Positions 5,607-64,000 of a stretch of 64,000 nucleotides of DNA are shown here, piece after piece. The position numbers were made by a program, and so were the translations under genes. The notes beneath the pieces are model-generated. The model was given only the letters and a program-made list of their open reading frames with translations. It did not search any database and was not told the DNA's origin. The stretch is from the NCBI RefSeq assembly GCF_003149145.1, contig NZ_QGDQ01000009.1, forward strand, positions 1 through 64,000, read 5' to 3'. How positions within the stretch are numbered: the stretch's first letter is position 1; each line of letters starts with the position of its first letter. Source of the DNA: Quadrisphaera granulorum (GTDB taxonomy: Bacteria; Actinomycetota; Actinomycetes; Actinomycetales; Quadrisphaeraceae).

Positions 5607-6134
5607 GTGCAGGAGGCGCAGTTCGATGCCCTCCACCGGACCATGGCCGACGAGGTCTACCGCTTCGCCGCTCGCCGTACCAGTCACGCCACGGCTGAGG
5701 AGGTGACGGCCGAGGTGTTCATGGCGCTGTGGACCGGCCGCCACAAGATCCCTGAGCCACCCGATGAGCAGCGGGCGTGGGTGTTCGGGGTGGCTCGCCG
5801 CCAGTTGCTGCGGGCACAGGCCGCAGAGGAGCGCCATCGCACCATCGGGGCAAGGGTGCGTGCCGCGCTGGGGGTCGGGGCGCCGGTCGTCGAGGAGGAC
5901 GTGGCGCTCGACGTCCTGGAGACCCACGCCGCGCGGCGGCTGTGGGACCAACTGCCGGTACGAGACCAGGAGGTGTTGGCGTTGACCGCATGGGAGGGAC
6001 TCACTCCGGCCCAGGTAGCGGCGGTGCTCGGCGTGAGCATCACGGCGGTCACCACTCGCCTGCATCGCGCTCGTAGGCACCTGGCGGACCTGCAGCAGTC
6101 CCCGCATGAGGACACCGCGGGAGACAGGTCATGA
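5607..6134 (+). CDS. ECF-type RNA polymerase sigma factor (sigma-70 family)
   Basis: The 175-residue product has a sigma-2 region (residues about 5-70, FDALHRTMADEVYRFAARRT then a VFGVARRQLLRAQ segment) and a sigma-4 helix-turn-helix (about 110-165, LPVRDQEVLALTAWEGLTPA then VSITAVTTRLHRARRHL). This is the normal ECF two-domain layout. A GTG at 5607 is chosen because homology begins just after it; longer upstream readings in this frame are not conserved-looking. The stop overlaps the start of the next gene by ATGA, so the two are translationally coupled, and the partner is probably its membrane-bound regulator. Confidence 0.85.
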   Translation: MQEAQFDALHRTMADEVYRFAARRTSHATAEEVTAEVFMALWTGRHKIPEPPDEQRAWVFGVARRQLLRAQAAEERHRTIGARVRAALGVGAPVVEEDVALDVLETHAARRLWDQLPVRDQEVLALTAWEGLTPAQVAAVLGVSITAVTTRLHRARRHLADLQQSPHEDTAGDRS

Positions 6135-7315
6135 ACCGCCGCCGGCTGCGACGCGCGTTCGGTGAAGCGTCAGCCGATCAGCGACGTGCCGCCGACGAGG
6201 CAGCGGCTCAGGCGCGCGCGGACCTCGCCGCCGGCGGCTTCGCCGCGAACGTCTCGCCTGATCCGGCGCTGGAAGCGCAGGCTCGTGCCGTCAGCTTCGA
6301 CGCAGTCATGAGGCTTCGGCAAGCCGAGGCCGAGGGCAAGGCCACCAGCGCCCGTTCCGCAGCGCTCAGTTCCGCAGCGCCCCGCTCGGTGCTGCGGCGA
6401 CCGGTGCTGCTGACCGGACTGGTCGCCGCAACAGTGGTGGTGGCGGTCGTGGTCAGCGCCGTCTTGCCCGGGGGTACACCGTCCGCAGCGGCAGGCACGC
6501 CGCCGCTCCTGACCTTCTCCCAGGTGTCGGTCTCCACCGACCTCGACGATGTCGAACCCGCCCGCGCGGAGCTGCTCACCCTGGCCTCGCGCGCCGCGGC
6601 ACAGCCCGCGGTGGACGGCAGCCGCGGGTACGTACTGACCCGCTCGGAATGGGCGTTGTCCTCCTCGGCCGACGCCTCGGACCCTCGGGCCGCTGTGGTG
6701 CCCTTCGAGACCACCATCACCGTCACCCCGGATGGCGCGGCCGTCCGAGTCGACCACCGGGGAACTCCGCTGACCCCTGACGGGCGCGGCATCGCGGGCT
6801 CTAGCGCACCTCCGGGCGGGCCTGCTCTCCAGACTGACCGGTTTCCCCCCGGCTACCTCGACCTCCAGCTGCCGGCGTCATTACCGAGGGACCCGACGGC
6901 GTTGCGAGGGGACCTCGTGCAGAGGGGCGACTGCCTCGCCGCGTCGGCGCAAGGGGCCGCCGCGTCCGGCGGCGATGATGGCGAGGACGCTGTATGCCTG
7001 GTGAAGGCCGTCACGTCCCTGTACTCCTACCAGCTGCTGCCTCCGGATCTCCAGGCTGCGCTGTGGCAGGTCCTGGCTGCCGAGCCCGGACTGAAGCTCG
7101 CAGGAACGGGCACTGACCGCGCGGGGCGCCCGTGTGTCGCCGTCGTCCTGGACACCTCCCAGGGCGGCCGCACCGAACGGTGGGTGCTCATGGCAGACCC
7201 CGCCACCGGTGCCTTCCTCGGCATGGACCAGATGCTGACAGCGGGCTCCGAGGGAGGGGTCCCGGCGCCCGTCGTCCTCGACTTCACCGTCGAGCGCGGC
7301 GCGCGCTCCTTCTGA
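6131..7315 (+). CDS. CU044_5270-like membrane-anchored partner of the ECF sigma factor
   Basis: The 394-residue protein has a charged cytoplasmic N-terminus (about 90 residues, Ala/Arg/Asp rich), one transmembrane helix at about 93-115 (LTGLVAATVVVAVVVSAVLP) and a large extracytoplasmic domain. The coupling to a sigma gene and the topology match the actinobacterial CU044_5270 family, which usually sits directly downstream of ECF sigma factors and is thought to sense or modulate sigma activity. No zinc-binding anti-sigma motif (HxxxCxxC) is visible, so it is not a ZAS-type anti-sigma factor. The role is inferred from context. Confidence 0.65.
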   Translation: MNRRRLRRAFGEASADQRRAADEAAAQARADLAAGGFAANVSPDPALEAQARAVSFDAVMRLRQAEAEGKATSARSAALSSAAPRSVLRRPVLLTGLVAATVVVAVVVSAVLPGGTPSAAAGTPPLLTFSQVSVSTDLDDVEPARAELLTLASRAAAQPAVDGSRGYVLTRSEWALSSSADASDPRAAVVPFETTITVTPDGAAVRVDHRGTPLTPDGRGIAGSSAPPGGPALQTDRFPPGYLDLQLPASLPRDPTALRGDLVQRGDCLAASAQGAAASGGDDGEDAVCLVKAVTSLYSYQLLPPDLQAALWQVLAAEPGLKLAGTGTDRAGRPCVAVVLDTSQGGRTERWVLMADPATGAFLGMDQMLTAGSEGGVPAPVVLDFTVERGARSF

Positions 7316-7344
7316 CGGTTGCCCACGGACCCCGGCGGCGCAGC

Positions 7345-8634
7345 TCAGCCGGCGCCGGGGGCGGGGTGAGAGGTCGACGACGGCGGCAGCAGCGGCCGCG
7401 TTCGCGCCAGCAGGCCCGTGAGTACCAGCGCCACCAGCGCCGCCGCCCCTGCGAGCAGCACCACCGCGGACCACCCTCCGGCGGACCACGCGACCCCGCC
7501 GCCGGTGCCTCCCAGCGACGAGCCGACGTAGTAGGCGAACAGGTACGTGGACGCCGCCTGCGCCGTCGCCCGGCCACCGGCCCCGGCGCGCGCGGCCACC
7601 CAGCCGCTGGCCACGCCGTGCGCGGCGAAGAACCCGGCGGTGAACACCGCCATCCCCACGATCACGGCCCACAGTGGCGCCGCCACCGTGATGGCGAGCC
7701 CGACACCCATGACCACCACCGAGACGGGGACGACGACGCGCCGGCCGAGTGCATCAGCCAGCCGCCCGCCCTGCGCCGACGTGTACGACCCGAGCGCGTA
7801 GACCGTGAAGACAAGCCCCGCGACGGCCGGGCCCAGCGAGTACGGCGGAGCCTCGAGGCGGAACCCGATGGCGTTCCACACCGCCACGAAGGAGCCCATG
7901 AGCGTCAGCGACAGCCCGTACAGCGCGAGCAGCGCCGGGTCGGTGACCACTCCGCGGGTGCGGTGCGCGAGCGCCCGCAGGCCCGCGGGCGCTGGGGTGA
8001 ACCGCCGCGAGCGCGGCAGCAGCCACCACACGAGCGCCGCGCACACCAGTCCGAGGACGGCGACGCCGCCCTGCGCGGCCTTCCACCCTCCGAGCTCGGC
8101 GAGCCCGGAGGAGACCAGCCGGCCGAGCATCCCCCCGATGGCGTTGCCGCCGACGTACAGCCCGGTCGCGCGGCCCGCGGCCAGCGGGTGCACCTCCTCT
8201 CGGAGGTAGGCGACGGCGACGGCGGGCAGCCCGGCCAGCGCGAGTCCTTGGACGGCGCGCAGCGCGACCAACCAGTCCCACGTTGGCGCGAGCACCGCGA
8301 CCAGCCCGAGCACGCTGGCCAGGACGAGGGAGCTGTGCACGAGGCGTGTGCGCCCGAAGCGTTCCGAGACAGGCCCCGCGACCAGGAGCCCGACCGCCAG
8401 CGCCGCCGTGGTGGCCGAGACCGCCAGGGTGGCGGCCGCCGGTGTCTGGGAGAAGTCCGACGCCAGCAGCGGCAGCAGTGGCTGCGGCGCGTAGAGCAGC
8501 GCGAACACCGCGACCCCGGCGAGGAACAACGCCCACGAGGCCCGCCGCAACCCGGAGGAGCCGGGCAGGTAGCCCTCGTCCGCTCCGGGGCTGCCACCGG
8601 AGTCGGCTCCGGGATCGGGAGGGATCACGGGCAC
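7345..8634 (-). CDS. MFS transporter of the YnfM/AraJ-like drug or sugar efflux group
   Basis: The protein of about 429 residues has 12 predicted hydrophobic segments. The MFS signature between TM2 and TM3 ([13 protein letters not shown]) and the TM4-5 motif ([29 protein letters not shown]) are typical of the YnfM subgroup, which exports small molecules with proton exchange. The start is uncertain: GTG codons at 8634 and 8628 lie just before the hydrophilic N-terminus, without a strong SD. It is divergent from the alcohol dehydrogenase gene, about 100 bp apart, and ends 29 bp from the convergent CU044_5270-like gene. The substrate cannot be read from sequence. Confidence 0.85.
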
Positions 8635-8738
8635 CAACGCTAAGGACCCATCGTGCGCGACCCGCAAACCGGCCCCAGGATGGTTCGGTAACCCAACCGT
8701 TCGTGACGGAACCCGACCCTCGACCACGGAGGAGACCC

Positions 8739-9794
8739 GTGCCCACCATCGTGCACGCCCGCAGCACCGCCGGACCCGGCGAGCCGTTCCAGGCGGCCAC
8801 CATCGAGCGCCGTGACCTGGGCCCTAAGGACGTCCTCATCGACATCGCCTACGCCGGCATCTGCCACTCCGACATCCACACCGCTCGCGGCGAGTGGGGC
8901 AAGACGCTGTACCCGCTGACCCCCGGGCACGAGATCGCTGGCGTCGTCGCCGAGGTCGGCTCCGAGGTCACCCAGCACGCTGTCGGTGACCGCGTCGGCG
9001 TCGGCTGCATGGTCGACTCCTGCCGCGAGTGCTCCGAGTGCCAGGCCGGCCGCGAGCAGAACTGCCAGAACGGCAATGTCGGTACGTACAACGCCATCGG
9101 CAAGGACGGGCGCCCCACCGAAGGTGGCTACAGCGAGAAGATCGTCGTCGACGAAGACTTCGTGCTGCGCATCCCCGAGGGCATCGACCTCGACGTCGCC
9201 GCGCCTCTGCTGTGCGCCGGCATCACGCTGTACTCGCCGCTGAGTTACTGGAAGGCCGGGCCCGGCAAGCAGGTCGCCATCGTCGGCATGGGCGGCCTCG
9301 GCCACATGGGCGTGAAGATCGCCCACGCGATGGGCGCCGAGGTGACCGTGCTGTCGCAGTCACTCAAGAAGCAGGAGGACGGCCTGCGCCTCGGCGCTGA
9401 CCACTACGTCGCCACCGGTGACGAGGGTGCGCTGGAGTCCCTCAAGGGCACCTTCGACCTCATCATCACGACGATCTCCGCCGACGTCGACATCAAGCCC
9501 TACATCGCCGCGCTCAAGCCCGAGGGCGTGCTGTGCACCGTGGGCCTGCCGAGCAAGCCGTTCCAGGTGCCGGCCGGAGCGCTGATCATGGGCCGCAAGA
9601 GCCTGGCCGGCTCCAACATCGGCTCGATCGCGGAGACCCAGGAGATGCTCGACTTCTGCGCCGAGCACCACATCGGCGCCGAGGTCGAGGTCATCACCGG
9701 TGACCAGATCGACGAGGCGTGGGACCGCGTCGTGAACTCCGACGTGCGCTACCGCTTCGTCATCGACACCGCGACGCTGGCGCCCTCCGCCTGA
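8739..9794 (+). CDS. NAD(P)-dependent zinc alcohol dehydrogenase (CAD/YahK-like)
   Basis: The 351-residue medium-chain dehydrogenase starts at a GTG behind a strong GGAGGAG. Catalytic zinc ligands are seen in [14 protein letters not shown] and [12 protein letters not shown]; structural zinc cysteines lie in [15 protein letters not shown]. The Rossmann loop is [24 protein letters not shown] to it, [14 protein letters not shown] is characteristic of the cinnamyl-alcohol-dehydrogenase/YahK branch, which prefers NADPH and reduces a broad set of aldehydes in the cytoplasm. It appears to be a single-gene transcript ending in the strong hairpin at 9800-9842. Confidence 0.9.
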
Positions 9795-18356: not shown

Positions 18357-19196
18357 TCAGGCGCGAGGCACACCGAGTAGCTCGAGCAGCTCGGCGCGCA
18401 AGGAAGCCAGGTGTGCGTCGCCACGGTCGCGCGGGTGCGCCAGCTCGACCTCGGTGGTGCGCAGCACGCCCGCGCCCTGCTCGGGGGGAGCGCCGGTGGG
18501 GCGCCCCAGGACGACGACGCGGTCGGCCAGGTGCAGCGCCTCGTCGACGTCGTGCGTGACGAGCAGCACCGTGGTGGGCGTGGCTGCCAGCACGTCGAGC
18601 AGGAGGTCCTGCATGGTCAGCCGGGTCAGCGCGTCGAGCGCAGCGAACGGCTCGTCGAGCACGAGGACACCGGGACGGCGCGCCAGCGCCCGTGCCAGCG
18701 CCGCACGCTGCGCCATGCCCCCGGACACGCTGCGGGGGCGGTGGTCGGCGAAGCGGGCCAGGCCGACGACGTCGAGGAGGGCGGCCACGCGCTCTCGGCC
18801 CTCGGCCTTCGGGGTACCCGGCGGCAGGCCCAGGGCCGTGTTGCCGGCCAGCGTGCGCCACGGCAGGAGACGGGGCTCCTGGAAGGCGACGGCGCAGCGC
18901 GGGTCGTGGTCGCGCACGGGGGCGCCGTCGAGCAGCACGCTGCCCGTGCTCGGTGCGTCGAGGCCGGCGACGGCCCGCAGCAGCGTCGACTTGCCGCAGC
19001 CCGACGGCCCGAGCAGCGCCACCACCTCGCCGGCGGCGACGTCGAGGTCGACGTCAGCGAGGACGACGTGGTCGCCGAAGGTGCGGCCCACACCCTGCAG
19101 CTGGACCGCCACGGGGGAACCTGCGCCGCGCGGCGCGGCGGCGGAGCCGGCGCGGGACGCGGGTGCGCTGACAGCGCTGGACACGAGAGCCTCCAT
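18357..19196 (-). CDS. ABC transporter ATP-binding protein, SsuB-like
   Basis: The ATPase of about 279 residues is complete: Walker A GPSGCGKSTLL, Q-loop FQEPRLLPW, signature SVSGGMAQRAALARAL, Walker B VLVLDEPFAALDALTR and H-loop LLVTHDVDEAL. The PRLLPWRTL segment is typical of the nitrate/sulfonate/taurine group. The ATG at 19196 has AGGA seven bases upstream and is preferred over an in-frame ATG six codons earlier. It is the first gene of the operon; an 84-bp gap precedes the binding-protein gene. Confidence 0.9.
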   Translation of the reverse strand: MEALVSSAVSAPASRAGSAAAPRGAGSPVAVQLQGVGRTFGDHVVLADVDLDVAAGEVVALLGPSGCGKSTLLRAVAGLDAPSTGSVLLDGAPVRDHDPRCAVAFQEPRLLPWRTLAGNTALGLPPGTPKAEGRERVAALLDVVGLARFADHRPRSVSGGMAQRAALARALARRPGVLVLDEPFAALDALTRLTMQDLLLDVLAATPTTVLLVTHDVDEALHLADRVVVLGRPTGAPPEQGAGVLRTTEVELAHPRDRGDAHLASLRAELLELLGVPRA

Positions 19197-19524
19197 CGGT
19201 CCTGGCGGTAGCACCGGCCCGCGCTGGAGTGCGCGGGTGGTTGCTGCGGCGTCGCTGAGCCAGGTCTCTCGGCCGCTCGGGATGGTCGGCGTCCATCTTA
19301 CGGGCCGGTCAGCTGTGCCTGCCCGCGCTGACCGCGCGGACGATGGGGCGGATCACCGTGCAGATCACCGTGCAGATCACCGGGCGCGTGACCGCGTTGT
19401 GGTCCGCCGGTGACAGTTGGGCCTCCGCTCGGGGGAGGGCAGTGCCCCGGGCGGCCCCCTGTGTCGCCCGACCGGAGTGCTCCGCGGTGGACAGCCCCCT
19501 CGCCGAGAGGACAACCTCCCGGAC
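19197..19524. other. Intergenic region with a 12-bp tandem repeat
   Basis: This 328-bp region separates the ABC operon (minus) from the BlaI/M56 genes (plus) and must hold both promoters. GATCACCGTGCA occurs twice in tandem at 19351-19374, followed by a degenerate third copy (GATCACCGGGCG, 19375-19386). The repeats could be regulator sites. No convincing -35/-10 pair is seen. Confidence 0.4.
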
Positions 19525-35787: not shown

Positions 35788-36672
35788 TCACGGATGGGGG
35801 GTGGCGCGGCGGGCGGCGAAGGCCTCCAGCACCCGCCGGCCCGCGTCGTAGGTGAGGCGGCACGCCTCTCCGGCGCCACCGGCCACCACGGCATCGGAGA
35901 GCACCTCCGTGGCCACCGTCGCCGGTGGCCGCGATGCGGAGCCGTCCAGCGCGGGGGCCAGTGCGTCCAGCCAGGCGAGCAGGTCTACCGCCCCCGCGCC
36001 GGGCAGCTGCCGGTAGTGGCGACCTTCCTCTCGCAGGTCGGGCATCCGTTCCGGTAGGGCGTCGCACAGCTGCACGGACACGACGAGCCCGTCCTCCGCG
36101 GCGGCTGCAACCTCCTCCAGCGAACCGCCGGAGCGGTGCCAGTGCCAGGCGTCGAGGATGAGCCCGGAGTTCGGGGCGCCGACGTCCTCCACGAGCGCGC
36201 GAGCGGCGGCCAGGGTGCGCAGCTCCGCGTACGGCATGAACTCCACCCCGATCCGCAGCCCGTGCCGGGCGGCCCGCGTGCAGAGCCGCTCGAAGCCGCG
36301 GCGCACGACGTCGTCGGGGACGACGTCGAACAGCCCCACGTTGATCTGCTGCGCGCCCGTGAGGTCGGCCAGGTGCAAGAGGATGTCCTCCTCCAGGCGT
36401 GTGCCGCGCACGTCGGCGTCGGTCCACCAGTCGCGCAGGAACTCCAGCTCCACCACCTCCAGCCCCGTGCGGGTGAGGTAACCGCGGATGTCGTCCTCGG
36501 CGATACCGCTGCGGCGGGCGCTGAGGTAGTCGGCCGCGCCCAGGCCGATGCCGGCATATCCCGCGGAGGCTGCAGCGCGCACCCGCTGGGCGAACGCCGT
36601 CGTCTTGAGCGTGAGCGCCGACAGGTGCAGCGGCGGCGCGCTGAGGGGGGTCGGAGGGTTCGGCTGGATCAT
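35788..36672 (-). CDS. Sugar phosphate isomerase/epimerase-like TIM-barrel protein
   Basis: The 294-residue product fits the AP-endonuclease-2-type TIM barrel family. FAQRVRAAASAGYAGIGL is the first strand/helix, followed by GLEVVELEFLRDWW, RIGVEFMPYAELRTL, GLILDAWHWHRSGGS and VVSVQLCDA, which carry the Glu/Asp/His metal ligands. It starts at the ATG 36672 with GGAG upstream. It is divergent from the A-T-TE synthetase, 83 bp apart, so the two may share regulation and a pathway. The exact reaction is unknown. Confidence 0.8.
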   Translation of the reverse strand: MIQPNPPTPLSAPPLHLSALTLKTTAFAQRVRAAASAGYAGIGLGAADYLSARRSGIAEDDIRGYLTRTGLEVVELEFLRDWWTDADVRGTRLEEDILLHLADLTGAQQINVGLFDVVPDDVVRRGFERLCTRAARHGLRIGVEFMPYAELRTLAAARALVEDVGAPNSGLILDAWHWHRSGGSLEEVAAAAEDGLVVSVQLCDALPERMPDLREEGRHYRQLPGAGAVDLLAWLDALAPALDGSASRPPATVATEVLSDAVVAGGAGEACRLTYDAGRRVLEAFAARRATPHP

Positions 36673-36755
36673 GGGCGGGTACTCCGAGCGGTCGACGTGA
36701 CCTGGCGGCTTCCGCTTCTGACCGTAGGGTTGGCCGTTGATCGAGGGGGGCTCAG

Positions 36756-39383
36756 ATGGGCTGGTCGGGGGACCGTGAGCAGGGCCGGGGGGCGTTCGTC
36801 GCCTTGACGGCCCATGAGGTGCACCAGCACGTCGTGACGCGCGTCCGCGCCGTTGCCGCCGCCCAGCCGGGTGCGCTCGCCGTCGACGACGGCTCGCTCC
36901 GGCTCGACTACGCCGAGCTCGAGCGGCGCGCAGCCGCCCTCTCGGCACGGATCGCGGCAGTGGCGCCGGCGGGCGAGCCGGTGGCGGTGCTCCTCGGGCA
37001 GGGCGCGACCGTGGCCGTGGCGGTACTGGCGGTGATCGGCACGGGCGCCCCCGTCGTCGTCCTCGACTCGACCACCCCGGTGGCCCGGCTGCGCCACTAC
37101 GTCGAGCTGGCAGGAGCCACCACGGTGGTCACCGACGCCGTGCGCGCCGCTGACGGCGCGGAGCTGTGCGCCCGCGTGGTGAGGGCCGACAGGTCGTTGG
37201 TGGCGCTCGGGGAGGACGGCGACCCCACCGCCTCCGCCCTCGCGTGGCCCTGCAGCGAGGAGCAGCTCGACAGCCGCGCGCCCGTCGTCATCGTGTTCAC
37301 CTCAGGGTCCACGGGACGCCCCAAGGGGGTGTCGGCGCACTCGGAGTCCGTCCTTCACGACGCCACCACCAACGGCCGCGGCTGCTACGGCCCGGGCGCG
37401 GTGATCGCGAACCTCCTGCCGATGGCGTTCAGCGCGGGCATCGGCCTGCTGCTGGCGGGCCTGGCCACCGGCTCGGGGCAGGTGCTGTTCGACCCGCGCA
37501 CCCGGCCCGTCTCGGAGCTGCCCGGCTGGCTGCTGCAGACCGGTGCCACCGTGCTCGCCGCGAGCCCGGCCATCCTGCGTGGCGCCGTCGCCGCGCTCGC
37601 CCCCGGGGAGCAGCTCGGTCACCTCAAGGCGGTGACGACGGCGGGGGAGACCATCCACGCCGCGGAGATGCAGCGTCTGCGTGCGGCGCTGGGCCCGGGG
37701 TGCGCCGTCCACAACCGGTACGGCTCCACCGAGACCTGGCTCATCGCTGAGCACGTCATTGCCCCTGCTGACAGCGGACCCGCCGGCGCCGTGCCGGTCG
37801 GGCGACCGGTAGACGGTGTGTCGCTGCACGTGGTCGACGAGCACGGCACACGCCACGACTCCGGCACCGGCCGCCTCGAGGTGACCTCGCGATGGCTTTC
37901 GGACGGCTACTGGAACGCCCCCGAGGCGACCGCCGCCGTCTTCACCGACCACGCCGACGGCTCCCGCTCCTACCTCACCAGCGACACCGCCACCATCGAC
38001 GACGACGGCGTGGTGCGCCTCCTCGGCCGCGTCGACCACAGCGTGAAGATCCGCGGGCACCTCGTGGAGCCCGGCGAGGTCGACGCCGTGCTCCACGCGC
38101 TGCCCGAGGTGCGCGAAGCCGTGGTGGTCGGGGTCGTGCCTTCCGTTGATGAGGGCGACGACGGCGACAGCGCTGGAACGGGCCGCGCCCGGCTCGTCGC
38201 GTACGTGGTGCCCGAGAGCGCTGCACTGCAGATTCCGGAGCTGCGGCGCTCGGTGCGCGCCGTGCTGCCGTCGTTCATGGTGCCCGAGCAGGTGGTGCTG
38301 CTCGACGCGCTGCCGCGCACCGAGCGCGGCAAGCTCGACAGGTCAGCCCTCCCGCCTCCGCCCGCCGTGCAGGTGGGAGCCGCGCCGCCCCGCACCGACT
38401 GGGAGCGGGTGGTGGCCTCGTTCGTGGCGCGCGCCCTCGACCTCGACGGCGTCGGCGCCCACGACGACTTCTTCGAGCTGGGCGGCGACTCCCTGGCCGC
38501 CGAGGCGCTCATGGCGGCGATGGCCGCCTCCCTCGACGTGCCGTCCGGCGTGCTCACCACACGTCTCATCGCGGAGAACCCGACCGTCGCCGAGCTCGCC
38601 GAGGCGCTGCGGCGGCGCCGCCGGCCCGGGCGCGACGCCGCCGTCGTCACGTTCAACGCCACCGGCACTCACCGCCCGCTGTTCGTCGTGGCCGGCGCCG
38701 GCGGCGTGGCCCTCGCGTTCCGGCGCCTGGCCGAGCGCCTCGGGTGCGACCAGCCCGTCATCGCCCTGCAGGCCCGGGGCCTGGAGGGCGGCGGACGCCC
38801 GGAGTGGTCGGTGCGGAGCCGCGCCCGCCACCACCTGGAGCAGCTGCGGCGGGCGCAGCCCGAGGGGCCCTACCGCCTGGCGGGGCACTCGCTGGGAGCG
38901 CTGGTGGCGCTCGACATGGCGCAGCAGCTGCGCGAGGCCGGCGAGGAGGTGGAGTCGCTGATGATCATCGACTCGTTCCCGCCCGACCCGGACGTCGCGC
39001 CCCCGGCGCTGGAGGGCCCGCTGCCGCAGCGCGCCAAGATCCTCGCGTCGATCCTGCTCACCGGCGTGGTGCAGAGCCGCGGCCTGGGCCACTACGACAG
39101 GTTCCACCTGCAGGGCAAGCTGCTCCAGCGCCGGTACCGCTCGCAGCCGTGGGCCGGTCGGGCGCTCGTGCTGGTGGCCGCTGACGACCCCGACGCCGAT
39201 GCTCGCTCCCGGTGGGCCCAGCACCTGACGGGCACGTGGTCGCTGCACCGGACGGGCGGAGACCACACCGGCGTGCTCCAGGAGCCGCACGTCGGCCCGC
39301 TGGCGCGGCTGGTCAGGGCCGAGCTCGACGCGCTGGACCGGCTCGGAGCCGACGCCGTCCAGCGCCCCGCCGGCGCCGCCTGA
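36756..39383 (+). CDS. Stand-alone NRPS-like enzyme with A-T-TE architecture
   Basis: The 875-residue protein has an adenylation domain (about 20-530: VIVFTSGSTGRPKG near 180, NRYGSTETW near 322, RTERGKLDR with the catalytic Lys near 526), a carrier domain (FFELGGDSLAAEAL, Ser near 578) and a thioesterase (GHSLGALVALDM near 710, GGDHTGVLQEPHV near 836). There is no condensation domain. In the substrate-pocket region (LPMAFSAGIGLLL) the Asp that normally binds the amino group of an amino acid is not seen (Ser/Ala instead), which points to a non-amino-acid substrate such as a 2-keto or aryl acid. Bacterial and fungal A-T-TE enzymes of this kind join aryl-keto acids into furanones or quinones. 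Product unknown. Confidence 0.85.
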   Translation: MGWSGDREQGRGAFVALTAHEVHQHVVTRVRAVAAAQPGALAVDDGSLRLDYAELERRAAALSARIAAVAPAGEPVAVLLGQGATVAVAVLAVIGTGAPVVVLDSTTPVARLRHYVELAGATTVVTDAVRAADGAELCARVVRADRSLVALGEDGDPTASALAWPCSEEQLDSRAPVVIVFTSGSTGRPKGVSAHSESVLHDATTNGRGCYGPGAVIANLLPMAFSAGIGLLLAGLATGSGQVLFDPRTRPVSELPGWLLQTGATVLAASPAILRGAVAALAPGEQLGHLKAVTTAGETIHAAEMQRLRAALGPGCAVHNRYGSTETWLIAEHVIAPADSGPAGAVPVGRPVDGVSLHVVDEHGTRHDSGTGRLEVTSRWLSDGYWNAPEATAAVFTDHADGSRSYLTSDTATIDDDGVVRLLGRVDHSVKIRGHLVEPGEVDAVLHALPEVREAVVVGVVPSVDEGDDGDSAGTGRARLVAYVVPESAALQIPELRRSVRAVLPSFMVPEQVVLLDALPRTERGKLDRSALPPPPAVQVGAAPPRTDWERVVASFVARALDLDGVGAHDDFFELGGDSLAAEALMAAMAASLDVPSGVLTTRLIAENPTVAELAEALRRRRRPGRDAAVVTFNATGTHRPLFVVAGAGGVALAFRRLAERLGCDQPVIALQARGLEGGGRPEWSVRSRARHHLEQLRRAQPEGPYRLAGHSLGALVALDMAQQLREAGEEVESLMIIDSFPPDPDVAPPALEGPLPQRAKILASILLTGVVQSRGLGHYDRFHLQGKLLQRRYRSQPWAGRALVLVAADDPDADARSRWAQHLTGTWSLHRTGGDHTGVLQEPHVGPLARLVRAELDALDRLGADAVQRPAGAA

Positions 39384-39391
39384 CCACCACT

Positions 39392-39447
39392 CCTCGACGA
39401 TCAAGGAAGCTGTGCATGGGGGCGTGCACGACTTCCTTGATCGTGCC
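39392..39447. repeat. Imperfect palindrome after the A-T-TE gene (family, copy 5)
   Basis: CGATCAAGGAAGCTGTGCA (39398-39416) pairs with 39424-39443 with a few mismatches. It starts 9 bp after the synthetase stop and precedes the ileS T-box. It is likely the transcription terminator of the synthetase gene. Confidence 0.75.
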
Positions 39448-39479
39448 CGAGGGTGAGGGGTGAAGGTCGACGCGACCCC

Positions 39480-39745
39480 GGCGTAGGATCTGCGGCACAG
39501 GCATCGACCCGGCCATCACCGGTGAGCCTCCGGAAGAACAGGGCCCGCGCCGCACGGTGAGCGGCCCCCAGTAGAACCGGACGGGAGCAGCCCGTCAGCG
39601 CTGCACGACGAGCGGTCGTCGTCGTCGTCCTCGGCGGGTTCGAGGACGGTGGTGGCGGCAAGCGGGGTGGTACCGCGGGGCCTGGCCAGTACGGCGGGCG
39701 TCGTCCTCGCACCGACCTGACATCGAGCTGACAGCCAGATGACGG
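39480..39745 (+). promoter_or_regulatory. Isoleucine T-box riboswitch of ileS
   Basis: GGTGGTACCGCG at 39666-39677 is the T-box sequence that contacts the uncharged tRNA acceptor end. An ATC (Ile) specifier lies at 39515-39517 within CCGGCCATCACCGGTGAG, in an ultrashort stem I of the actinobacterial type. The linker CAGTAGAACCGGACGGGA (39570 onward) is also typical of actinobacterial ileS leaders. Uncharged tRNA-Ile would raise ileS expression; in actinobacteria this class is mostly translational. The exact boundaries are approximate. Confidence 0.88.
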
Positions 39746-39755
39746 ATGGTGTGAC

Positions 39756-42700
39756 GTGAGCGAGCGCAAGAGCTACCCCCTGGCCTCGGCGCTGGGCGCC
39801 GAGCGCGGCGTACCGGCCTCCCCGAGCTTCCCCGACCTCGAGGCTGCAGTGCTGGCGCACTGGAAGTCCGACGACACCTTCGAGGCGTCCGTCGGTGCGC
39901 GTGAGGCCGGTGAGAAGGGGAGCAACGAGTACGTCTTCTACGACGGCCCGCCCTTCGCCAACGGACTGCCCCACTACGGCCACCTGCTCACCGGGTACGT
40001 CAAAGACGTCGTGCCGCGGTACCAGACCATGCTCGGCAAGCGCGTCGAGCGGCGCTTCGGGTGGGACTGCCACGGCCTGCCCGCCGAGGTCGAGGCCGAG
40101 CGGCAGCTGGGCATCACGCACAAGAGCCAGATCGAGGAGCTGGGCGTCGCGGCGTTCAACGACGCCTGCCGCACCTCGGTGCTGAAGTACACCGACGAGT
40201 GGCGCGACTACGTCACCCGCCAGGCCCGCTGGGTCGACTTCGACCACGACTACAAGACCCTCGACACCGACTACATGGAGTCGGTGATGTGGGCCTTCAA
40301 GACCCTGTGGGACAAGGGCCTCGTCTACGAGGGCTTCCGCGTGCTCGCGTACTGCTGGCGCTGCGAGACGCCGCTGTCCAACACCGAGACCCGCATGGAC
40401 GACGTCTACCGCCAGCGGCAGGACCCGGCCGTCACCGTGGGCATGACGCTGACCAGCGGCGACTGGGCCGGCGCGAAGGCCCTCATCTGGACGACGACGC
40501 CGTGGACGCTTCCTTCCAACCTCGCCATGGCCGTCGGCCCGGACGTCGAGTACGCCCTGGTGGAGCCGTCCGAGGGCGCCTTCGCCGGGCAGCGCCTCGT
40601 GCTGGCCGCGGCGCGGGTCGGCGCGTACGCCCGCGAGCTGGGCGGCGGTGACGCGGCGCCGACCGTGCTCGCAACCAAGCTCGGCCGTGAGCTGCTCGGC
40701 ACCACGTACACGCCGCCGTTCGCGTACTTCACCGGCCGCGAGAACGCCCACCAGGTGCTCCTGGCCGACTACGTCACCACCGACGACGGCACCGGCGTCG
40801 TCCACATCGCCCCGGCCTTCGGTGAGGACGACAAGCTCGTCACCGACGCCGCCGGCATCGAGGCCGTCGTGCCCGTGGACGGGCAGGGAACGTTCGACGC
40901 CCGCGTGAGCGACTACGAGGGCCAGCACGTCTTCGACGCCAACGCGGTGATCATCAAGGACCTCAAGGCCGCCACGCGCGGCGACGCGACCGAGCCGACC
41001 CCTGTCACCGAGGGCACCGTGCTGGTCCGCCAGGAGACCTACGACCACCCATACCCGCACTGCTGGCGCTGCGGCAACGCCCTCATCTACCGGGCGGTGA
41101 GCAGCTGGTTCGTCAAGGTCACGGCCATCCGTGACCGCATGGTCGAGCTCAACCAGCAGATCGACTGGGTGCCCGGCCACGTCAAGGACGGGTCCTTCGG
41201 CAAGTGGCTCGAGGGCGCCCGCGACTGGTCGATCAGCCGCAACCGGTTCTGGGGCAGCCCGATCCCGGTGTGGACCAGCGACGACCCGACCTACCCGCGG
41301 GTCGACGTCTACGGCTCCCTCGCCGAGCTCGAACGCGACTTCGGCGTGAAGGTCACCGACCTCCACCGGCCCTTCGTCGACGAGCTGACCCGCCCGAACC
41401 CCGACGACCCCACGGGCAAAAGCACCATGCGGCGCGTCCCCGAGGTGCTCGACTGCTGGTTCGAGTCCGGCTCGATGCCGTTCGCGCAGGTCCACTACCC
41501 GTTCGAGAACGCCGAGTGGTTCGAGCACCACTACCCGGGTGACTTCATCGTCGAGTATGTCGGCCAGACCCGCGGCTGGTTCTACACGCTGCACGTGCTG
41601 GCCACCGCGCTGTTCGACAGGCCCGCGTTCCGCACCGCGCTCGTGCACGGCATCGTGCTCGGCGACGACGGCCGCAAGATGTCCAAGAGCCTGCGCAACT
41701 ACCCGGACGTCTCCGAGGTGTTCGCGCGCGACGGCGCCGACGCCATGCGCTGGTTCCTCATGTCCAGCCCCATCCTGCGCGGCGGCAACCTCGTCACCAC
41801 CGAGGCCGGCATCCGCGACGGCGTGCGCCAGGTGCTCCTGCCCCTGTGGAGCACCTGGTACTTCCTCGCCCTCTACGCCGGCGCGCTGCGTCCCCAGGGT
41901 GATCAGGACGACGACGGCGAGGGCGTCGCTCCGTCAGCGGGGCTCGTCGGCCGCTGGCGCACCGACTCGCCCCACGAGCTCGACCGGTACGTCCTCGCCA
42001 GCCTGCGCGACCTCGTCTCGGACGTGCGTGGCCAGCTCGACGCCCTCGACGTCGCCGGGGCCTGCGAGAGCGTCCGCGTCTTCCTCGACTTGCTCACCAA
42101 CTGGTACGTGCGGCGCTCGCGGGAGCGGTTCTGGGGCAACGGCCCGGACGCCGTCGACGCCGTCGACACCCTCCACACGGTGCTGGAGGTGCTCACGCGC
42201 GTGGTGGCGCCGTTGCTGCCGCTCACCGCGGAGGAGATCTGGCGCGGCCTGACGGGCGGGCGCAGCGTGCACCTGGCCGACTACCCCTCACCCGAGGACC
42301 TGCCTGCGGACCCCGACCTCGTCGAGGCCATGGACGCCGTCCGCGCCGCGTGCTCGGCGGCCCTGGGCCTGCGCAAGGCCGGTGGCCTGCGCGTGCGGCA
42401 GCCGCTGCCGCGCCTCACGATCGCCGTCCCCGGAGGCGGGTCCGAGGGGGCCCTCAGGGAGCTGGTGGGGCTCGTCGCCGACGAGGTCAACGTCAAGGAC
42501 GTGGTGCTGCTCGACGCGGAGGACTCCGCCGCCGAGAACTTCGGCGTCACCCAGAAGCTCACCGTCAACGCCCGCGCCGCCGGTCCGCGCATCGGCAAGC
42601 AGGTGCAGCAGGCCATCCAGGCTTCCCGCAGCGGTTCCTTCGAGGTGCGGACCGCGCCCGACGGCAGCGAGTTCGTGGTCGCAGGCGGCATCGAGTTGCT

Positions 42701-63510: not shown

Positions 63511-64000
63511 TCAGTTCTCGAGGATCTTCTCGGAGACCTTGATGCCCACGTGGCGGCCGGGCTCCCAGATGCCGCCGAGGAGCTTCTCGCCGGGTTTGAC
63601 CTGCGTGAGGTTGCGGACCTCGCCGCCATCGCCCATGACCCGCACGTGCCAGTCGTCCTGGAGGATGACGTTGACGAGCGAGCCGGAAGCCTCGTCGCGG
63701 GCTTCCAGCAGGCGCAGCGGGCGTAGCTCGATCTTCACGCGGCCCACGGAGGTGTCGCGGAAGCGACCGGCCGCGTTGACGCCCGAGACGGGCGCCCCTG
63801 CCCGCAGGTCGGTGATGTACGACGTCGTGGTGGGGGAGAAGACGTAGGAGTGCACCGCCCCGGCGTTGACCCGGAACGGGCGCAGGTCCATGTACGGCAG
63901 GTAGTGCACCTCGGCGCACACGAGGATGCCGCCCGAGGACGTCGATCCGATGATCATGCCTTCGTCGTCGTCGAAGAGCGTCGTGGTGTCGATGCAGCCG
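63511..64000 (-). CDS. 3-dehydroquinate synthase II-like protein, partial (C-terminal part)
   Basis: Only the last 163 codons are in the window; the start lies beyond the right edge. Segments GMIIGSTSSGGILVCAEV, RPFRVNAGAVHSYV, ITDLRAGAPVSGVNAAGR, GRVKIELRPLRLLEA and EASGSLVNVILQDDWHVRVMG are typical of the archaeal-type DHQ synthase II family. In actinobacteria this family is mainly represented by GriH-like enzymes that make 3-amino-4-hydroxybenzoate, a secondary-metabolite precursor. Which of the two it is cannot be decided from this part. The gene is convergent with the histidine phosphatase gene; a GC-rich stretch lies between. Confidence 0.8.
   Translation of the reverse strand, partial: GCIDTTTLFDDDEGMIIGSTSSGGILVCAEVHYLPYMDLRPFRVNAGAVHSYVFSPTTTSYITDLRAGAPVSGVNAAGRFRDTSVGRVKIELRPLRLLEARDEASGSLVNVILQDDWHVRVMGDGGEVRNLTQVKPGEKLLGGIWEPGRHVGIKVSEKILEN

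Follow-up and report, generated by a model that had tools for sequence, protein, structure and literature searches.

A divergent gene pair of Quadrisphaera granulorum combines a synthetase of adenylation, carrier and thioesterase domains with a dehydratase-like TIM barrel, a candidate pathway to an activated 3,4-disubstituted benzoate

The window analysed here is a stretch of 64,000 nucleotides from Quadrisphaera granulorum (assembly GCF_003149145.1; positions 1 to 64,000 of contig NZ_QGDQ01000009.1). The subject of this work is a pair of divergent genes in this window, where a plus-strand gene encodes a synthetase (P0001) built from adenylation (A), carrier (T) and thioesterase (TE) domains and a minus-strand gene, whose start codon lies 83 bp away, encodes a TIM-barrel protein (P0002). 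The features of the locus are as follows, with the code numbering of the A5 segment taken from PMC11253843.

35788 to 36672, minus strand: TIM-barrel protein P0002, 294 aa (PF01261, 65 bits), read as 3-dehydroshikimate dehydratase-like, with Glu144, Asp174, His177, Gln201 and Glu256
36673 to 36755, no strand: divergent intergenic stretch of 83 bp, partially conserved across five genomes of the genus
36756 to 39383, plus strand: A-T-TE synthetase P0001, 875 aa, defined by its open reading frame, Pfam domains and orthologues in the genus
36849 to 38333, plus strand: adenylation domain with AMP-binding_C, residues 32-526 (PF00501, PF13193)
37416 to 37445, plus strand: A4 pocket segment LPMAFSAGIG, residues 221-230, with Ser226 at the position of GrsA Asp235
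37713 to 37739, plus strand: A5 segment NRYGSTETW, residues 320-328, with Arg321 at the position of GrsA Ala322 and Ser324 replacing Pro
38412 to 38609, plus strand: carrier domain, residues 553-618, with Ser579 (PF00550)
38673 to 39314, plus strand: thioesterase domain, residues 640-853, with Ser712, Asp739 and His837 (PF00975)

The reading frame of P0001 was found to be intact from the ATG at 36756 to the stop codon. A preliminary description of this DNA had placed the gene at 36672-39383; the stop was placed correctly, but 36672 is where the minus-strand neighbour has its start codon. Pfam identifies AMP-binding at residues 32-386 (179 bits), AMP-binding_C at 441-526, PP-binding at 553-618 and Thioesterase at 640-853. 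In agreement with the preliminary description, no condensation (C) domain was found by Pfam in P0001, and PF00668 has no match in the whole genome. The protein has the layout of an A-T-TE protein resembling nonribosomal peptide synthetases (NRPS), and the possibility that it is a fragment of a larger NRPS was rejected because the genome is devoid of C domains. Its motif residues include the TSGSTGRPKGV stretch at 182, Lys526, the carrier Ser579 and the residues Ser712, Asp739 and His837, to which we assign their presumed roles, the last three as candidates for the TE triad. The predicted structure of P0001 (predicted local distance difference test, pLDDT, 78.6) matches NRPS modules and A domains with good coverage only over residues 18-580, and none of the listed structural matches favours a substrate class. 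Gene calls in the GC-rich loci described below were made with our own script, and names given by eye are our reading of the sequences.

The pocket of the A domain lacks the Asp that binds the amino group of the substrate. In a gap-free alignment with a canonical A domain (row G663) the LPMAFSAG segment falls on FDAG, and therefore the position of GrsA Asp235 is occupied by Ser226. There is no Asp or Glu within residues 206-245, and HMMER alignments to two LgrA domains, in which the gap was placed elsewhere, also gave no Asp at the pocket position. The missing Asp had been noticed earlier in the motif MAFSAG and is confirmed here, whereas a shifted Asp, which would have undone that observation, was rejected as no acid lies in this range. 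P0001 is in this respect unlike an alpha-amino-acid A domain. The identity of the residue at position 235 was observed to be variable, with Ser in 13, His in 9 and Tyr in 3 of the 25 core rows (out of 47 proteins), where the surrounding motifs read LP[MLI][AG]F[SHY]AG and [NH][RK][YF]GS[ST]ET. Of these rows, 24 have Arg321 and one has Lys, and Arg321 is invariant in a ten-row alignment. The aryl-acid domains of the DhbE/EntE type also have no Asp at position 235, and an aromatic acid is what we propose for P0001, but their A5 motif is QQVxFMAEGL instead of the NRYGSTET found here, and the A domain of P0001 is joined to T and TE domains.

The preliminary description had inferred from the missing Asp that two aryl-keto acids are joined to a furanone, a quinone or a related compound. 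According to this explanation the A domain would activate an aryl-keto acid, the TE domain would couple two of them and the barrel would modify the precursor or the product. The known systems behind it are DatA, EchA and RalA together with the polyporic acid and atromentin synthetases, which are stand-alone A, T and TE proteins without a C domain in which Asp235 is replaced, as in P0001. A passage of PMC10316625 names RalA and EchA as bacterial members of this class of quinone- and furanone-forming A-T-TE synthetases. According to PMC9047271, every fungal A-T-TE enzyme characterised takes aromatic keto acids as substrates, and DatA of Streptomyces converts phenylpyruvate to polyporic acid (PMC9379647). 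The Pro of the YGPTE motif is Ser in P0001, and the keto-acid domain StsA, according to PMC11253843, is also without this Pro. However, a passage of PMC10316625 on basidiomycete and related enzymes gives Val at code position 1 as the mark of alpha-keto-acid quinone synthetases, whereas all 25 core rows contain Ser, His or Tyr there; this rule derives from the description of other enzymes, with the pockets of RalA and EchA outside the comparison. Domains for aryl acids, for alpha-hydroxy acids and even for L-Phe also have a residue other than Asp at position 235 (PMC11253843), and therefore the missing Asp does not single out keto acids. The P0001 family is further set apart from the DatA/EchA/RalA group by its linkage to a dehydratase-like barrel or, as shown below, to a cassette containing a DHQS-II gene. 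These linked genes suggest a supply of a 3,4-disubstituted benzoate and nothing in them points to keto acids. A 3,4-disubstituted benzoate would have no alpha carbon for keto-acid coupling. We consider the joining of two keto acids, and with it the furanone or quinone product, to be quite improbable.

P0001 is a member of a conserved family. Orthologues with 78-84% identity were found in four of the five other genomes of the genus, while the fifth (G003, 91% complete) has neither the A-T-TE gene nor the barrel at the orthologue level. With a profile of ten members, the family was detected in 26 of 297 genomes of the order (E<=1e-120) and, at the laxer threshold of 1e-90, in 31 of 396 genomes of the phylum, where many matches lie in frames of more than 1,300 aa as in larger NRPS. 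A scan of genome contigs with the single protein gave 78 loci, only two of which are close (L024 and L025, 77-83% identity) with the others at 23-39%. The genome of Q. granulorum also carries a second A-T-TE gene on the minus strand at C9:111680-114202 (locus L013), 37% identical to P0001 over the whole alignment, with the segments PAFAMG and NCLGSSET and with Ala at the position of Asp235. This paralogue adjoins three genes which were read by eye as ATP-grasp, alpha-E and transglutaminase-like.

The barrel was found in 11 of the 297 genomes of the order (E<=1e-30, 12 copies), all of which are among the 26 genomes with an A-T-TE gene. In each of the 11 genomes, which come from two families, one copy is divergent from the A-T-TE gene and adjoins it at a distance of 83-324 bp as measured by match boundaries, the twelfth copy (G200:C8) being left out of this count. 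Fisher's test gives p = 2.3e-13 for the association, although kinship is ignored and the true weight is smaller. We take the genera g1, g17, g42 and g97 of our collection to be Quadrisphaera-, Kineococcus-, Kineosporia- and mycobacteria-like respectively. The pair is flanked by valS and ileS in the genus of the window and by unrelated genes in g42, and therefore it is the pair and not the region that is kept. A chance neighbourhood is unlikely given this adjacency and the differing flanks, and we regard the pairing as real. The earlier proposal that the barrel gene belongs to the same pathway is supported by this co-occurrence, a related form of which recurs in g97. A tartronate-semialdehyde-reductase-like gene was also seen near the A-T-TE gene in four genomes of the genus and in two of the five clustered g42 loci (L019, L020, L021, L022, L131 and L137). 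It is absent beside the pair in the window, and the two tested copies are 36% identical; it might be a third member of the system. A glutathionylspermidine-synthase-like ATP-grasp gene follows the barrel in locus L131 (12745-13950, minus strand; PF03738, 395 bits), and the cluster to which it belongs is represented in all five clustered g42 barrel loci.

The nearest solved chain to P0002 is Lmo2234 (2g0w, 4.5e-43), which we take to be QuiC2. The barrel profile also matches IolI (4.2e-25), chain 5hmq (7.8e-21) and, at a weaker level, AsbF (1.5e-06). Chain 5hmq carries the name 4-hydroxyphenylpyruvate dioxygenase in the PDB and is presumably QuiC1. A title in the reference list of PMC9324987 describes, for Listeria, a class of dehydroshikimate dehydratases named QuiC2. 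The Lmo2234-like gene of Listeria has a LysR-type gene on one side, and downstream are a flavin-oxidoreductase-like gene, a shikimate dehydrogenase and two transporter-like genes, among which only the shikimate dehydrogenase was identified by search (562 bits against a cut-off of 432). In another genome (G026), a related barrel of 268 aa, which itself matched no NCBIfam model at 1e-12, stands before a gene for type II 3-dehydroquinate dehydratase (226 bits, cut-off 171), 33 bp away; this enzyme makes 3-dehydroshikimate. In Embleya a barrel with 44% identity is followed by an intradiol dioxygenase gene. These settings suggest aromatic or shikimate chemistry for the relatives of P0002, and a role as isomerase would also be possible.

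The Glu, Asp, Gln and Glu of the metal site were observed in all 16 aligned barrels, full-length QuiC-like proteins included, and the His that follows the Asp is missing only in G026 (15 of 16). P0002 combines the PF01261 barrel with Glu144, Asp174, Gln201 and Glu256 as expected of the QuiC type, and it shares the RHxR..PGxG stretch seen in two full-length QuiC-like proteins. The metal residues of AsbF are Glu142, Asp172 and Glu253 according to part of PMC9324987. In comparison with the QuiC-type dehydratases (QuiC1 5hmq, AsbF and QuiC2 of Listeria), P0002 has in common the fold, the four metal-site residues and the His after the Asp, but it is a single-domain protein which adjoins an A-T-TE gene and scores far under the cut-off of the QuiC model. 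The predicted structure of the barrel is poor (pLDDT 56.2, 3 sequences). The preliminary description had called this gene isomerase-like; the TIM barrel stands, while the Lmo2234- and QuiC-type matches favour a 3-dehydroshikimate-type dehydratase over an isomerase, an activity which the IolI match nevertheless keeps possible. We refer to P0002 as dehydratase-like.

An isomerase role would lead to a different explanation of the pair, namely that an enzyme of the IolI or hydroxypyruvate-isomerase type, with the tartronate-semialdehyde-reductase-like enzyme as partner, provides a non-aromatic hydroxy, keto or cyclic acid whose second carboxylate is bound by Arg321. The IolI match, a weak NCBIfam hydroxypyruvate-isomerase match of P0002, the occurrence of the reductase-like gene in the loci described above and the invariance of Arg321 in the ten-row alignment would all be consistent with it. 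However, the low identity of the two tested reductases and the lack of such a gene at the pair in the window speak against a shared partner, Gln201 agrees with the QuiC-type chain and not with the IolI row, and the cassette pattern of g97 described below is left unexplained. We therefore see this explanation as unlikely.

The second genus, g97, was represented by 60 genomes drawn from a larger genus. Homologues of the A-T-TE gene were found in 10 (E<=1e-150), a related barrel in 7 (1e-30) and DHQS-II in 3 (PF01959, 0.001). The genomes with the barrel and those with DHQS-II do not overlap and together make up the 10 A-T-TE genomes, whereas the other 50 have neither. By Fisher's test p is 3.1e-7 for the barrel and, when either supplier is counted, 1.3e-11, again with kinship ignored. 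The four g97 barrels for which identities were measured are 27-31% identical to P0002, and all seven are covered by the metal-site alignment. In five of the seven genomes (G714, G691, G731, G696 and G720) the barrel is located within about 5 kb of the A-T-TE gene, and in G711 and G719 it lies elsewhere.

In the genome G612, a 4-hydroxybenzoate-3-monooxygenase-like gene, an aldolase gene and the DHQS-II gene are lined up ahead of the A-T-TE gene, from which 20 bp separate them. The same three cassette genes (65-78% identical) are found in G693 and G728 between a transporter-like and a ribD-like gene, these flanks being named by eye. In G711 the barrel occupies the place that the cassette has in G693 and G728, and the flanking proteins are 63-87% identical. 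In the producers of bagremycin and ferroverdin, DHQS-II and aldolase make 3-amino-4-hydroxybenzoate according to NCBIfam descriptions. The homologous enzymes are BagB and BagC (FevI and FevH); in the relatives the aldolase and DHQS-II genes are operonic with the A-T-TE gene in G612 and lie together at another locus in G693 and G728. Unlike BagB and BagC, the cassette of these relatives adds the monooxygenase-like gene and scores below the cut-offs of the BagB/BagC exception models (241 of 500 and 405 of 750 bits). Taking the products of the barrel and the cassette together, both suppliers would be expected to give a 3,4-substituted benzoate.

We noticed that the residue at the position of Asp235 changes with the identity of the supply genes in g97. 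Ala was observed in all eight A-T-TE proteins of the seven barrel genomes and Gly in all three proteins of the cassette genomes, and the GS[ST]E motif is followed by TL or VC in the former and by AS in the latter. A tree was built from 26 of the 47 proteins, comprising all 11 relevant g97 rows, with the other lineages each represented by one or a few. The cassette proteins do not form one clade in this tree and two changes are forced by well-supported branches; the sample has only two such switches, and the clustering of the supplier label is no stronger than under shuffling, where 82 of 500 runs were as low.

Our best reading of the locus is that P0001 would be a benzoate-type A-T-TE synthetase served by a dehydratase of its own, which would make it a variant within the NRPS-like A-T-TE layout. 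In the proposed two-gene pathway, P0002 would act as a metal-dependent 3-dehydroshikimate dehydratase whose product is protocatechuate (3,4-dihydroxybenzoate) or a closely related compound. In P0001 the A domain, with its pocket devoid of the amino-binding Asp, would adenylate this 3,4-disubstituted benzoate and load it onto the carrier Ser579. The TE domain would then take the aroyl group onto Ser712 and transfer it to an acceptor bearing a hydroxyl or amine; candidates are another aryl acid, a saccharide or some other small molecule. As benzoates have no alpha carbon, coupling of the quinone-synthetase kind would be unlikely, which leaves hydrolysis or a transfer to O or N as the options. 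The two catalytic activities, the identity of the benzoate and the entire TE step are predictions from the sequences, and we give the pathway a probability of roughly 0.55.

Several observations weigh against this pathway. P0001 is only 30-36% identical to the g97 A-T-TE proteins, and its pocket residue is Ser instead of the Ala or Gly found there. The barrel profile favours IolI over the QuiC-type chain 5hmq, and P0002 (294 residues) scores 47.5 bits against the QuiC model NF042435, which has 635 positions and a cut-off of 1200. Neither the paired barrel nor DHQS-II is present in 14 of the 26 A-T-TE genomes of the order, 11 of which belong to g17, and G111 has no barrel match at 1e-8. DHQS-II occurs in 8 of the 26 genomes and 7 of these also have the barrel, so the alternation of g97 is not seen in the order. 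The cassette genome G693 also has a QuiC-like protein (118 bits with the barrel profile). Two genomes that lack both suppliers, G577 and G567, likewise carry Gly235; Gly may therefore be the older state at this position. As for genomes without the barrel, two-domain QuiC-like proteins were found in G025, G098 and G137 of g17 and in G044 and G138, where they score 471-560 bits over most of the QuiC model, under its cut-off, and a supply from such proteins encoded elsewhere would be possible.

The genome of Q. granulorum itself offers another potential supplier. A DHQS-II-like gene at 63511-63999 on the minus strand begins outside the window and continues to C9:64626, with an ADH-synthase-type aldolase gene upstream at C9:64653-65477. 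Such a DHQS-II and aldolase pair makes 3-amino-4-hydroxybenzoate in some actinobacteria. P0001 might use this acid from the pair (C9:63511-65477), which lies 24 kb away, with the barrel having another task. However, both genes score under the cut-offs of their NCBIfam models, at 275 of 375 bits and 224 of 241 bits, DHQS-II is missing in two of the five A-T-TE genomes of the genus (G002 and G005) while the barrel adjoins the A-T-TE gene in all five, and the paralogue at C9:111680 may be the user instead. Only a slim chance is left for this assignment in our view.

The dehydratase and synthetase pathway could be part of a wider system. Four g97 loci (L178, L190, L191 and L192) encode A-T-TE proteins with about 450 extra N-terminal residues, which by eye resemble a membrane domain with multiple spans. 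In L190 the A domain starts at residue 466 of 1276 after this long stretch, in which Pfam names nothing for this one tested protein, and GT2 and GH16 genes are located nearby. A polysaccharide-synthesis gene of the flippase type lies about 7 kb from a second g17 copy (L145). The N-terminal stretch, the GT2 and GH16 genes and the flippase-type gene hint at surface acylation in these relatives, and the window itself shows no sign of it. We tentatively consider, as a rather doubtful extension, an actinobacterial A-T-TE system which transfers a 3,4-disubstituted benzoate to a surface saccharide or lipid-linked acceptor and whose suppliers are interchangeable, the barrel giving the 3,4-dihydroxy and the cassette the 3-amino-4-hydroxy compound, matching the one-residue difference in the pocket. 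Three genes at 5949-8946 on the plus strand of locus L135, read by eye as an iron-type ATP-binding cassette (ABC) transporter, were seen beside another second A-T-TE copy. A siderophore function was considered and not adopted; no such transporter lies beside L132 and L136, the two other second copies compared.

Transfer of the loaded group by the TE domain to another small molecule is a feature of MysE, which has the A-T-TE layout and an amino acid substrate. No mycosporine genes were seen beside P0001. MysE is named as belonging to the NRPS-like class in mycosporine-like amino acid clusters in part of PMC11888242. Among the search results listed from an open-licence library, no title or abstract opening tells of an A-T-TE protein that has a dehydroshikimate dehydratase as partner. 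Analogy with the keto-acid enzymes is the usual basis for interpreting orphan A-T-TE proteins. The replacement of genes in relatives suggests the substrate class ahead of the chemistry, and since the residue at the Asp position varies with the supply genes, it would give a code for A-T-TE enzymes of the benzoate type that can be tested directly. If the proposed pathway is true, it would add a second product class to the A-T-TE layout and would give the Lmo2234-type single-domain barrels a role beyond the use of quinate and shikimate.

Two further features of the window were noticed. The stretch at 39490-39750 on the plus strand, before ileS, has the look of a T-box leader by eye, whereas Rfam found no T-box over 39384-39770 and gave only a chance-like microRNA match far under the gathering score. 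An S-adenosylmethionine (SAM) riboswitch was identified at 19190-19288 on the minus strand (46.6 bits, gathering score 44.4), where it is located upstream of genes read by eye as an ABC transporter.

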